A stretch of 64,000 nucleotides of DNA. It comes from Acidimicrobiia bacterium (GTDB lineage: Bacteria; Actinomycetota; Acidimicrobiia; IMCC26256; JAOSJM01). The position numbers and the translations under genes were made by a program. This document shows positions 42,455 through 46,273 of this stretch, piece after piece (the first letter of the stretch is position 1; each line of letters begins with the position of its first letter). The stretch spans positions 1-64,000 of the forward strand of contig JAOSJM010000001.1 of NCBI GenBank assembly GCA_027494165.1, read 5' to 3'. The notes beneath the pieces were generated by a model. The model was not told the DNA's origin. It ran no database searches and saw only the letters and a list, made by a program, of their open reading frames with translations.

Positions 42455-43123
42455 TCAGGCCAGCCGGGCGAGCCGCCGGTTCGTCGCGTCGAGGACGGCC
42501 CGGGCGACGGCGTCGGCTTCGTGGTGCTGGCGGACCACCGCGGACCCTGACACCACCTCCTCGCTCGGGGGCACGACGAAGACGACGGTGACGACCGCGA
42601 CGTCGTGGACCCCGACCCGCACGATCTGGGCGCTCTCGACGTCGACGGAGGCGGCGGCCGGGTCGAGCTGACGGAGGGCGTCGAGGGTCGCGAAGGCCAC
42701 CAGCCGGTGCCGGCTGGCCGAGGCGATCGAGCCCTCCGCGAAGCCGACCGTCTCCTCACCCTCGTGCGCCAGCGTGACCCGCACCAACGACCGGAGGCCG
42801 CTCGTCTCGGGGTTGATGCCGACGATGACGGGGCGGAACGACGGCCCGCCCGCGGGCGCTCCCTCGCCGTCGCCCCCGCCGAGCTGCACCACGGAGACGA
42901 TGCGCCGATCGAGCTCCAGCCCGAACGAGGCGAGGGCCACCGACTGCACGTCCCGGACGACCTGCTTGGCCGGTTTGCCCGGTTCGGCGAGCACGTGGAC
43001 CTCGACCGGGCGCCCCTTCTCGTCGGCGACGATCCGGGCTGCCTGGACGTCGGGGAGGCGGCACAGCTCGCGCTCGATGTCGTGGAGGTCCAACGGGGCG
43101 TCCGCGGCGCGCAGGTACTCCAT
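42455..43123 (-). CDS. uncharacterised protein, 222 aa
   Basis: MEYLRAADAPLDLHDIERELCRLPDVQAARIVADEKGRPVEVHVLAEPGKPAKQVVRDVQSVALASFGLELDRRIVSVVQL...; clean ORF with no indel. Confidence 0.75.
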   Translation of the reverse strand: MEYLRAADAPLDLHDIERELCRLPDVQAARIVADEKGRPVEVHVLAEPGKPAKQVVRDVQSVALASFGLELDRRIVSVVQLGGGDGEGAPAGGPSFRPVIVGINPETSGLRSLVRVTLAHEGEETVGFAEGSIASASRHRLVAFATLDALRQLDPAAASVDVESAQIVRVGVHDVAVVTVVFVVPPSEEVVSGSAVVRQHHEADAVARAVLDATNRRLARLA

Positions 43124-43409
43124 GTCCGAGCCTTCCTTCCGTGGAGGTCTTCAGCATAGGCTCCGGCACGCGATGGCCGGGGTGATGCTCGACGTGGGTG
43201 CTCCCCGGCCGGGATGCCGGCCCTCGGCCCGGAGCGAGCGGCGTCGGGGGTTGCGCTCCGTGCATCGCTCCGTGAAACTAGTGGTGCTGATGTTGGAGAT
43301 GAGCCGCTTGTGGCTTGTGTGTCGGTCGTGAGGTGCACCCCGAGCCTCGTCCCCGACCGGGGAGGGCGCGGCGCCTCAGGTGCGCCCCGCACCCGGCCGA
43401 TGGAGAGGT

Positions 43410-43426
43410 GGGCACCCGGGGTGCCC
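43410..43426 (+). other. compact GC hairpin in HD-gene leader
   Basis: GGGCACC-CGG-GGTGCCC, flanked by gaga/tctc. Confidence 0.5.
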
Positions 43427-43468
43427 TCTCGGGCCGCGTCACTGAGGAGGGAGCCAAGGATTCGCTGA

Positions 43469-43491
43469 CTGGACCAAGACGGCAAGGCCTC
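43469..43491 (+). repeat. left arm of 23-nt inverted repeat
   Basis: ctggaccaagacggcaaggcctc; 22/23 complementary to 43688-43710. Confidence 0.85.
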
Positions 43492-43577
43492 GGCACGCGA
43501 CATCCGGAGCGGAGCGGAACCCACCCCTGCCCGTAGCAGCGGCGGACGGTGGTCGACACCGTGAAGGGGGTCTTCCC

Positions 43578-43670
43578 GTGAAGAAGGTCTACGTCCGGAT
43601 CGCTCTCCTGGCCACGAGCGTCATGGCGATGCTGCTGGCCGGTGGTGCTTGGGGCGCTTGGCGCCGGTAG
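43578..43670 (+). CDS. 30-aa single-TM microprotein
   Basis: GTG start with gaaggggg SD 7 nt upstream; MKKVYVRIALLATSVMAMLLAGGAWGAWRR*. Confidence 0.5.
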   Translation: MKKVYVRIALLATSVMAMLLAGGAWGAWRR

Positions 43671-43687
43671 TGCCTGGCTGATCCGCT

Positions 43688-43710
43688 GAGGCCTTGCCGT
43701 CTCGGTCCAG
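43688..43710 (+). repeat. right arm of 23-nt inverted repeat
   Basis: gaggccttgccgtctcggtccag. Confidence 0.85.
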
Positions 43711-43724
43711 ACGAGGGACAGCTC

Positions 43725-45071
43725 GTGCGACTTCAACGACCTGATCGCCTGACGGTCTTCTGCGTCGGTCTGGCCATGGTGGGCCTCTCCGTCGTGCTGT
43801 TCTTCGCGCTCGCCGATCCCCTGCCGGCAATGGTTCCGCTGGTCGTGTTCGCCTCGCTCCACCTCTTCGCCGAGCACCACGAGGTCGTCCTGCCGACCGG
43901 ACAGAGCCTGAGCGCCGGCTTCATGCTCGTCATGGCGTCCGTCGTGGTCTTCGCGCACGAGAGCTCGCCACTGGGCCCCGTGCTCGTGGGGATGAGCACC
44001 GCTCTGTACCTTCCTCACCTGCGGTCCTTCGAATGGCGCAAGATCGGCTTCAACCTGGGTGACTCGGGCCTCGCCGCGCTCGCCGCGGCCCTCGTCTACC
44101 ACTCCGTGCCCCACCAGTTCACCGAGTCGCCAGGGGGAGCCCTGTTGGTCGCGGTTCCGGCGGCGCTGGCGTGCGCCACGGTGAATCTGGTCCTGCTGAG
44201 CATGGTCATCGCGATGGCCTACGATCGGCCGTTGCGGGGGGTGTTCCGGGAGTACCTCGACTCGTACGTACAGATCGTGCCGTTCGCCCTGCTCGGGGTG
44301 TTCCTCGGCCTGCTCTACCGCGACGTCGGAGCGGCGGTCGTCCCGCTCTTCGTCGTCCCGATCCTCATCGCCCGCCAGACCTTCGGGGCGTCCCTCGACC
44401 TGCGCGGGGCCCACGAGGCAACGGTCCGCACGCTCATCCGCGCCCTCGAGGCCAAGGACGCCTACACGGCCGGGCACGCCGAGCGGGTGGCCCGGTACGC
44501 GCAGTACGCCGGCGAGGAGCTCCGCTTCCCGCCCCGGCGGCTCGAGCGTCTGCGCTTCGCGGCCCTCATGCACGACGTCGGCAAGCTCGTCGTCCCCAAC
44601 CACCTCCTCAACAAGCCGGGCCGTCTCACCCCCGAGGAGTTCGAGCGGGTCAGATCCCACGAGGCCGTCGCGGTGGAGATCCTCGGGCGCATCGACTTCC
44701 TCCGTCCGGTCACGCCGAGCGCCTCGGGGAGGTTCAGCCGCTACGAGCCCGGTGACGACACGAACCCGGTCGAGCCGTACATCGTCTCGGTGGCCGACGC
44801 CTACGACGCCATGACCTCGACCCGGGCCTACCGCAAGGCGCTGTCGCAGGACGTCGCCTTCGCCGAGCTGCGGGACAAGGCCGGCACCCAGTTCCACCCG
44901 CAGTGCGTCGAGGCGCTCATCGCGGCAGTCGAGCGTCGAGGGGAGCACCACGGGGCCGGGTGGGAGGCCGAGGTGCACGAGTTCGAGGTGGCGCCGCCGG
45001 AGGCCGGGACGGGCTCGGCCGGGCTCGGCGACCTCGACCTCGACGCGGGCCGGAAGGCGGCGTCGCGGTGA
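43725..45071 (+). CDS. membrane HD/HD-GYP-type phosphohydrolase
   Basis: Multi-TM N-terminus; EAKDAYTAGHAERVARYAQYAGEEL, LRFAALMHDVGKLVVPNHLLNKPGRLTPEEFERVRSHEAVAVEIL, VSVADAYDAMTSTRAYRKALS. Confidence 0.9.
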   Translation: MRLQRPDRLTVFCVGLAMVGLSVVLFFALADPLPAMVPLVVFASLHLFAEHHEVVLPTGQSLSAGFMLVMASVVVFAHESSPLGPVLVGMSTALYLPHLRSFEWRKIGFNLGDSGLAALAAALVYHSVPHQFTESPGGALLVAVPAALACATVNLVLLSMVIAMAYDRPLRGVFREYLDSYVQIVPFALLGVFLGLLYRDVGAAVVPLFVVPILIARQTFGASLDLRGAHEATVRTLIRALEAKDAYTAGHAERVARYAQYAGEELRFPPRRLERLRFAALMHDVGKLVVPNHLLNKPGRLTPEEFERVRSHEAVAVEILGRIDFLRPVTPSASGRFSRYEPGDDTNPVEPYIVSVADAYDAMTSTRAYRKALSQDVAFAELRDKAGTQFHPQCVEALIAAVERRGEHHGAGWEAEVHEFEVAPPEAGTGSAGLGDLDLDAGRKAASR

Positions 45072-46273
45072 ACCGGTCCCAGCGGCTGCGCACCTGGGTC
45101 GTCGCGGCGGCCGGCGCCACGACCGCCGCCGTGGCCGCGATCGCCGACCGCGACGGTCCCTGGAGCGGGCTGATCCTGCTCGGCCTCGGAGTGGTCGCCG
45201 GCGAGCTCCTGGAGCTGAACCCGGGGAACCGTCCCCGGCTCCCGCTGTCGCACGCGGTCGTGCTCGTGCTCCTGCGGGTGGGGACGATCGCCCAGGTCGC
45301 GGTGGTCGTCGGCGCCGGCCAGGTGGCGGCCTTCGCCGTGCGGGCGCGGCCCGAGGGCCGCCGGGCCCGCACGGCACTGCTGGGTCAGCGCCTCGTCGCG
45401 GCCGCGGCCGCGCTCGCCGCCTACCACGGGGTCGTGGACCACGTCCGCTTCGGCGACCGGCGCTGGTCCGTGCTCCTCGCCCTCGGGCTCGCCGGCCTCG
45501 CCCAGCTCGCCGTCGACGAGGTCGCCCGCCTGGTCCCGGCCCGCCAGCTCCGTGTTCCGCTGCGGGGACGCTCGGCCGAGCTCGCCCTCGTCACCAGCGG
45601 GATGCTCATGGCGGTCGGCTACTCGGGCGTGGACGGGCGGGGCGGCATGGGGCTGTGGGGACCGCTGCTCTTCTCGGTGCCCCTCCTGGCCGCCTGGTAC
45701 TCCTTCGAGCAGCTCGACTCCATCCGCACGACCTACGGGCAGACGATCCGGGCCCTCTCGGTCGTGCCCGAGCTCGGTGGCTTCGCACGGGCGGGGCATG
45801 CCGAGCGCGTGGCCGATCTCGCCGTGACGCTGGCGAGCGAGCTCGACCTTGGTCGCCAGGAGACCGAGCAGCTCGCCACCGCGGCGCTGCTCCACGACAT
45901 CGGCACCGTGTGCCTCGACGACCCGGAGGTGCTCGGCCGTCCCCACGAGCGGCCCGAGGTGGCCGAGGCGGGGGCCACGCTGCTGCGCTCCACCGAGTAC
46001 CTGTCCCGGGCGGGGGACTACGTCGCCGCGGAGCCCCTCCCGCACCGGCCCCGTGGCGCCGAGGCGCTTCCCGTGCCCGACACGACCCTGCTGTGCGGGC
46101 AGATCCTCAAGGTCGCCACCGACTTCGACGATCTGGCCGCCGGTCGACCGGAACAGACCCTGGTCGCGATCGAGGCCCTCTACTCGAGCCCCGGCTACGT
46201 CTACGACCCGCGGGTCCTCGCGGCGCTCGAGCGGATCCTGCGCCGGCGGGGCCTGGTCGGCACCCGCGCGTAG
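45068..46273 (+). CDS. membrane protein with degenerate HD domain, paralogous to preceding gene
   Basis: GHAERVADLAVTLASELDLGRQETEQLATAALLHDIGTVCLDD (HDIGT instead of HDxGK); GTGA overlap with upstream stop. Confidence 0.85.
   Translation: MNRSQRLRTWVVAAAGATTAAVAAIADRDGPWSGLILLGLGVVAGELLELNPGNRPRLPLSHAVVLVLLRVGTIAQVAVVVGAGQVAAFAVRARPEGRRARTALLGQRLVAAAAALAAYHGVVDHVRFGDRRWSVLLALGLAGLAQLAVDEVARLVPARQLRVPLRGRSAELALVTSGMLMAVGYSGVDGRGGMGLWGPLLFSVPLLAAWYSFEQLDSIRTTYGQTIRALSVVPELGGFARAGHAERVADLAVTLASELDLGRQETEQLATAALLHDIGTVCLDDPEVLGRPHERPEVAEAGATLLRSTEYLSRAGDYVAAEPLPHRPRGAEALPVPDTTLLCGQILKVATDFDDLAAGRPEQTLVAIEALYSSPGYVYDPRVLAALERILRRRGLVGTRA

Follow-up and report, generated by a model that had tools for sequence, protein, structure and literature searches.

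The window analysed in this work is a 64,000-nt stretch of DNA from an Acidimicrobiia bacterium with a high-GC genome (75% GC in the window). It carries two tandem genes for HD-domain proteins, HD1 and HD2, preceded by a leader region in which a long-range inverted repeat, designated P1, encloses a short open reading frame (microORF) with a Shine-Dalgarno (SD) sequence of its own. The coordinates of these features are listed in Table 1.

Table 1. Features of the HD operon and its leader in the window
Feature	Position	Strand	Basis and remarks
Promoter-like sequence TTGC-N17-GAAACT	43251..43279	+	Conserved; predicted start near 43286
Orphan SD-like sequence GAGGAGGGAG, 5' of P1	43444..43453	+	Anti-SD energy; start codon absent behind it
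P1 left arm	43469..43494	+	Inverted repeat; CTGGACCAAGACGGCAAGGCCTCGGC
Invariant motif AGCGRAGCG	43508..43516	+	Core alignment; here AGCGGAGCG
Hairpin P3 region, loop (T)AGCGR	43521..43552	+	Stem strength compared with flank shuffles; weak in the window copy
MicroORF SD, AAGGGGG	43564..43570	+	Direct reading
MicroORF, GTG start, 30 aa	43578..43670	+	MKKVYVRIALLATSVMAMLLAGGAWGAWRR; conserved family; looks like a single-helix membrane microprotein
P1 right arm	43685..43710	+	Inverted repeat; GCTGAGGCCTTGCCGTCTCGGTCCAG
HD1 local SD, GAGGGA	43713..43718	+	Anti-SD energy -6.8 kcal/mol
HD1, membrane N-terminus and HD_5 domain	43725..45071	+	Pfam HD_5 1e-20, HD 9e-14; sub-threshold MASE9
HD2, second HD protein	45068..46273	+	Pfam HD/HD_5; direct reading; start overlaps HD1 stop (GTGA)

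The HD_5 domain of HD1 recalls the HD-GYP phosphodiesterases of cyclic-di-GMP, as does the finding of GGDEF-EAL in its place in one relative. Unlike those enzymes, however, HD1 and its relatives in the order lack the HHExxDGxGYP segment (alignment A2), and HD1 is not placed among the HD-GYP proteins. A segment similar to HHExxDGxGYP (HHHEYFNGAGYGD) is kept in the translated relative at locus L043.

A gene on the minus strand (42455-43123) encodes a protein that has no match in Pfam or NCBIfam and whose C-terminus reads ..AVLDATNRRLARLA. A gene with a similar C-terminal end (..ATLDAINRR) immediately precedes the leader, in co-directional orientation, in Bacillota and Coriobacteriia; for this reason, the gene at 42455-43123 seems to be an old neighbour of the leader that is divergent in the window.

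Pairing and strand of the inverted repeat

A first-pass annotation of the window had described two arms, 43469-43491 and 43688-43710, complementary at 22 of 23 positions, and had placed the end of the right arm 14 nt before the GTG start codon of the HD gene. Both statements are right: the arms are present and extend to 26 nt with 24 complementary positions, separated by 190 nt, and the GTG is found at position 43725. The short ORF with its own SD announced between the arms was also found. P1 is the top-scoring 26-nt inverted repeat of comparable spacing in the 64-kb window, where the runner-up reaches 21/26, and 100 dinucleotide shuffles yielded no match to a P1 arm at three or fewer mismatches. 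Each arm has a single occurrence in the 4.4-Mb draft genome, so that a check for arms recurring genome-wide as element termini returned no second copy. Because no other copy of the arms occurs in the genome and synteny is conserved, the end of a DNA element is excluded, and mobile-element or MITE ends were ruled out on the uniqueness of the arms. A hairpin that had been reported at 43410-43426 does exist (7 bp) but is not part of the conserved element, as a mere 46-68 nt separates the promoter-like site from the left arm in some relatives, and the promoter-to-arm distance ranges from 46 to 220 nt in many loci.

The pairing of P1 is conserved and covaries. When 26 sequences of the order were aligned, compensatory changes were found in 22 of the 26 P1 pairs, and 91.7% of the cells were paired, compared with 35-51% when the whole structure was slid by 1-3 columns. 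Cells changed on both sides numbered 149 in that alignment, against 56 in shuffles, and every measure lay above 500 shuffles. Among 25 Clostridia sequences, 88.9% of the P1 cells were paired (22-48% in slid structures), with compensatory changes in 10 of 12 pairs. The sequence of the arms differs by lineage with pairing retained: other Acidimicrobiia families have wholly different arms that still pair, as in GTCTGCTGCCCAAGC/GCTTGGGCAGCGGAC. In a comparison with 60 shuffles per locus that covered 26 loci outside the order, P1 beat all shuffles in 12 loci and nearly all in most of the others; at L042, L060 and L171 it did not stand out from the 60 shuffles made of each. Conservation and covariation of the arms, which were checked in relatives as far as possible, are thus both present, with compensatory changes in homologues, and they uphold the earlier proposal that the HD operon has a structured leader RNA built around a genuine microORF.

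P1 cells include 45 G-U combinations on the plus strand and 22 A-C combinations. Because of this asymmetry, and because the SD and the ORF lie on the plus strand, action of the structure as a sense RNA is favoured. The first-pass annotation had left the choice open between an RNA switch, an antisense transcript and DNA element ends. Sense RNA is the part of that choice that is retained, with the promoter-like site as a further point in its favour; an antisense transcript is disfavoured by the same asymmetry and by the strand of the SD and ORF, and DNA ends were discarded.

Strict retention of pairing, and not of arm sequence, would also suit a processing stem that, as in pre-rRNA, RNase III would cut, separating the HD mRNA from a stable and short message for the microprotein. 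P1 is long, near-perfect and sequence-variable, and flanks a fixed-size insert in two phyla; pre-rRNA processing stems are likewise long-range inverted repeats around an RNA segment of fixed size. Here, however, the enclosed segment is coding and has invariant motifs near the start codon. Processing would leave the AGCGRAGCG motif, the P3 loop motif and a hairpin at the microORF SD (see below) unexplained, and P1 has only about 13 bp in some copies. On balance, we regard this explanation as unlikely.

Distribution, linkage to HD genes and the nested microprotein

Among 61 relatives, 42 had the HD1 protein. A long-range repeat with a loop of 182-206 nt and an ORF of 28-31 aa lies upstream in 27 of 30 loci of the order, the exceptions being L004, where the right arm can be recognised by eye, L029 and L030. 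At L029 and L030 the leader is absent and the promoter-like site is found directly at the HD start, as if a natural deletion of the leader had produced a nearly leaderless HD mRNA. Covariance model R1 picked up this leader in 38 of the 58 genomes searched within the order; in the class sample it had matches in 60 of 395 genomes, although the weak ones are in part not the element (e.g., L175 and L177). An HD-seeded scan of contigs listed mostly distant HD proteins, and among the matches listed the same layout was seen in Bacillota (L037, L042, L044, L045, L048, L050 and L064) and in Coriobacteriia (L088).

A model of the RNA core in which HD was not used matched 58 of 300 sampled genomes of one Clostridia-group phylum (the phylum of a Clostridiales MAG), and the RNA-core search also matched many Actinomycetota families. 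With the sequence-only core model, R2, noise from coding sequences is interspersed among the hits above about 1e-6, which were left out of the Actinomycetota counts. A co-directional HD gene lies immediately downstream in 52 of the 57 loci fetched by the RNA core (28 from Actinomycetota and 29 from the Clostridia group), and two of the five loci without it are at contig ends. The leader, mostly in one copy per genome, is present through Acidimicrobiia, other Actinomycetota and Clostridia-group Bacillota. At L159 (475-2988, minus strand), leader and microORF precede a membrane protein with a similar N-terminal domain and a GAF-GGDEF-EAL output. The unit formed by leader and microORF therefore tracks the membrane domain and not the HD domain as such, and its gene content suggests that it is probably linked to c-di-GMP-type signalling.

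Linkage to HD genes bears on a further explanation. A small hydrophobic peptide whose mRNA has its 5' and 3' parts joined in a long-distance helix brings to mind a type I toxin-like or dual-function RNA, in which a self-folded mRNA for the peptide would be controlled in trans and the HD gene would be a mere neighbour. However, the element is mostly single-copy, an HD gene adjoins it in the great majority of loci (52/57) and in two phyla, and no antisense partner was identified. We consider such a role highly improbable.

Some lineages have the genes and lack the AGCGRAGCG motif. In Chloroflexota the pair of microORF and HD gene exists, mostly without AGCGRAGCG, and at L035 and L146 microORF and HD gene are likewise retained in its absence. 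Since, in addition, L029 and L030 keep the HD gene without a leader, the leader RNA is not indispensable. At the Chloroflexota loci L242, L272, L274-L276 and L278, the microORF is located directly 5' of a membrane HD gene and the motif is missing; at another locus of this phylum, L277, both AGCGAAGC and a repeat resembling P1 (CAAACCGGCGGGGG/CCCCCCGCCGGTTTG) are present.

Related microORFs were also observed in another Actinomycetota group (L184, L188, L191, L195 and L203), without AGCGRAGCG and without a co-directional HD gene. Upstream, these loci have another pattern in common, with CTAC..GAA..GTAGG, CTTGTCGGCC and CCCCCGATAGT, that is possibly a second RNA element; Rfam searches gave no match at L184 and L188.

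The microprotein is 24-34 aa long across leaders (28-31 aa in the order), with the consensus MKK..VR.....SSLAALLLAGGA..W(R/K), and had no match in Pfam or NCBIfam. Divergence of the order microORFs by codon position (0.36/0.23/0.56) and a dN/dS of about 0.42 indicate that its sequence is under purifying selection. At L147 and L150, the microORF is found alone, without the RNA element and away from HD genes. Its existence away from both the RNA and HD makes it a protein in its own right, more than a leader peptide. A 236-aa ORF that resembles a sigma factor is located between the microORF and a membrane-domain gene at L147.

Layout of the leader and access to ribosome sites

The common order of elements, from 5' to 3', is P1 left arm, AGCGRAGCG, P3 hairpin, SD, microORF, P1 right arm and membrane HD-domain gene. 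The P1 loop measures 164-229 nt across leaders, and the right arm usually lies 15-60 nt past the microORF stop. Most order relatives have a promoter-like sequence, TTG-N19/21-GARACT (TTGC-N17/18-GARACT), upstream of the leader, and the left arm would therefore be transcribed; a strict match to the sigma-70 consensus is absent from the window site. In order loci such as L015, repeated 9-nt steps (CTGATGTGGTTGATGTGGTTGAAGTG and the like) were noticed in the 30 nt that directly follow the GARACT box, and may perhaps form a regulator site. A leaderless upstream ORF behind the promoter (MLEMSRLWLVCRS in the window) was considered and rejected, as its peptide is unconserved and frequently one codon long.

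The orphan SD found 5' of P1 is strong in the order: in 26 loci, its mean anti-SD energy is -11.6 kcal/mol against a background of -6.0 kcal/mol (p=3e-7), and a start codon follows it in almost none of them. The SD at the HD start of the order is weak (mean -4.6), and L018, L026, L011, L023 and L010 have nearly none. A split ribosome site would be an appealing explanation of both traits in part of the order, as formation of P1 would bring the orphan SD next to the SD-poor HD start. Precedents exist in genes 38 and 25 of phage T4, where the distance from SD to start codon is shortened by an RNA structure lying between them (PMC3014915). The T4 structures are small, however, while the structure considered here spans about 240 nt and has an ORF inside. 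The effective spacing would be 18-19 nt in L011, L013, L018 and L026 only, and 23-116 nt elsewhere. In Clostridia, moreover, the orphan SD is absent (anti-SD energy -4.6) and the HD SD is strong (-9.3). A conserved functional spacing is thus missing (18-116 nt overall), and a split site was discarded as a general mechanism. It would be lineage-specific at most, given that its spacing suits just four loci and that the orphan SD is missing from Clostridia, and as an account of P1 we find it quite improbable.

The core lies between the P1 left arm and the microORF. Every position of AGCGRAGCG other than R is invariant across Actinomycetota and Bacillota in a core alignment of 37 sequences, and the motif lies 63-90 nt from the microORF start. 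In 75 of 78 sequences, the P3 stem around the AGCG loop is stronger than in shuffles of the flanks (p=3e-14). The order alignment also showed a pairing between AGCG and CTGCT of the ORF, which was dropped, as Firmicutes ORFs were found by inspection to lack CTGCTG.

The microORF SD is strong in Clostridia (mean anti-SD energy -11.2 kcal/mol). In many copies read by eye, the bases just ahead of the start codon are the complement of the strand that directly follows P3, which would leave the SD in the loop. At L088, also read by eye, a hairpin GAGAAGACC..GGTCTTCTC that would sequester the SD could form around AAGGGG, overlapping the 3' strand of P3. In Firmicutes copies read in the same way (e.g., GATATAGCC..GGCTATATC at L045), it is the strand behind AGCGRAGCGG that would pair with the one close to the SD. 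Overlap of these alternative pairings with P3 or with the SD suggests that P3 and the SD hairpin may constitute a switch.

The first-pass annotation had suggested that P1 could occlude the ribosome-binding site of the HD gene. This is not general: the distance from the arm to the HD start varies between 7 and 104 nt in the order, and the HD SD is usually outside P1. In Clostridia, the strong SD of the HD gene is usually its own and lies 3' of P1. With distances and local SDs so variable, general occlusion was rejected, and, as the distance between P1 and HD varies, no single output mechanism can be recognised for all loci.

Behind the 3' arm of P1, a U run is found in part of Clostridia (e.g., GTCGGCCCTTTTTTTTA). 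Such a run would be expected if P1 were a transcription attenuator that ends transcription before HD and is modulated by microORF translation. The narrow U-run pattern fits just 7 of 25 Clostridia sequences, however; the window has no U run behind the arm and no terminator-like site was found there, and a loop of about 190 nt would be long in an intrinsic terminator. Attenuation is, in our opinion, a very improbable explanation. In one Clostridia clade (L249, L255, L259, L263, L265 and L270), P1 (AAAAGGGCCGAC/GTCGGCCCTTTT) is followed by U-rich sequence, and the arrangement resembles a terminator with a very long loop.

A candidate cis-regulatory RNA around a nested gene

The earlier statement that no riboswitch consensus fits the leader agrees with our searches: Rfam 15 gave no match at the leader in the window and 20 relatives at gathering thresholds, nor in 22 relatives at an E-value threshold, and a known riboswitch was thereby rejected. 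A 2017 survey reportedly comprised 224 candidate RNAs. No description of the leader was found in the open-access literature searched, and an earlier account may exist outside Rfam. Altogether, the leader looks like an undescribed conserved cis-regulatory RNA.

Its closest likenesses are with riboswitches and other Cis-reg leaders of Rfam. As in riboswitches, a conserved, structured, aptamer-like core is found (P1 and P3 are conserved and AGCGRAGCG is invariant). Conserved unpaired nucleotides and a multi-helix domain before a signalling gene are further shared traits, and the candidate SD hairpin seen by eye in many copies may be another. The differences lie in the lack of an Rfam 15 match and in the presence of a complete conserved gene inside the closing helix. 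Another comparison is offered by the downstream-peptide motif of cyanobacteria, a nitrogen-linked structured RNA wholly 5' of a conserved short ORF of 17-100 aa (PMC2864571). Both systems tie a structured RNA to a conserved short ORF. In the leader described here, however, P1 encloses the ORF, a membrane HD gene follows, and there is no Rfam match to the motif.

The reading that we prefer, with a probability of roughly 60%, is that the region acts as a cis-acting leader RNA timing the translation of the microprotein and of HD. The core formed by AGCGRAGCG and P3 would be a sensor or a protein-binding site, and its state would decide whether the SD of the microORF is free. P1 would set the amount of HD protein relative to that of the microprotein, and the microprotein may be a partner or regulator of the membrane domain of the HD protein. 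A more specific and rather doubtful proposal is that the leader represents a candidate riboswitch class of Clostridia and Actinomycetota, in which the repeated AGCGR motifs would bind a signalling molecule and thereby switch translation of the nested microprotein and of the membrane HD protein that the microprotein would control. Given HD and GGDEF-EAL as target genes, a cyclic dinucleotide would suit as candidate ligand.

It is unusual for the closing helix of a leader RNA to hold a gene. The leader joins a structured RNA absent from Rfam, a conserved membrane microprotein and membrane HD-domain signalling proteins. If the switch envisaged above were true, it would provide a direct handle on what the HD proteins sense, as well as on the proportioned expression of a nested gene and its neighbour.
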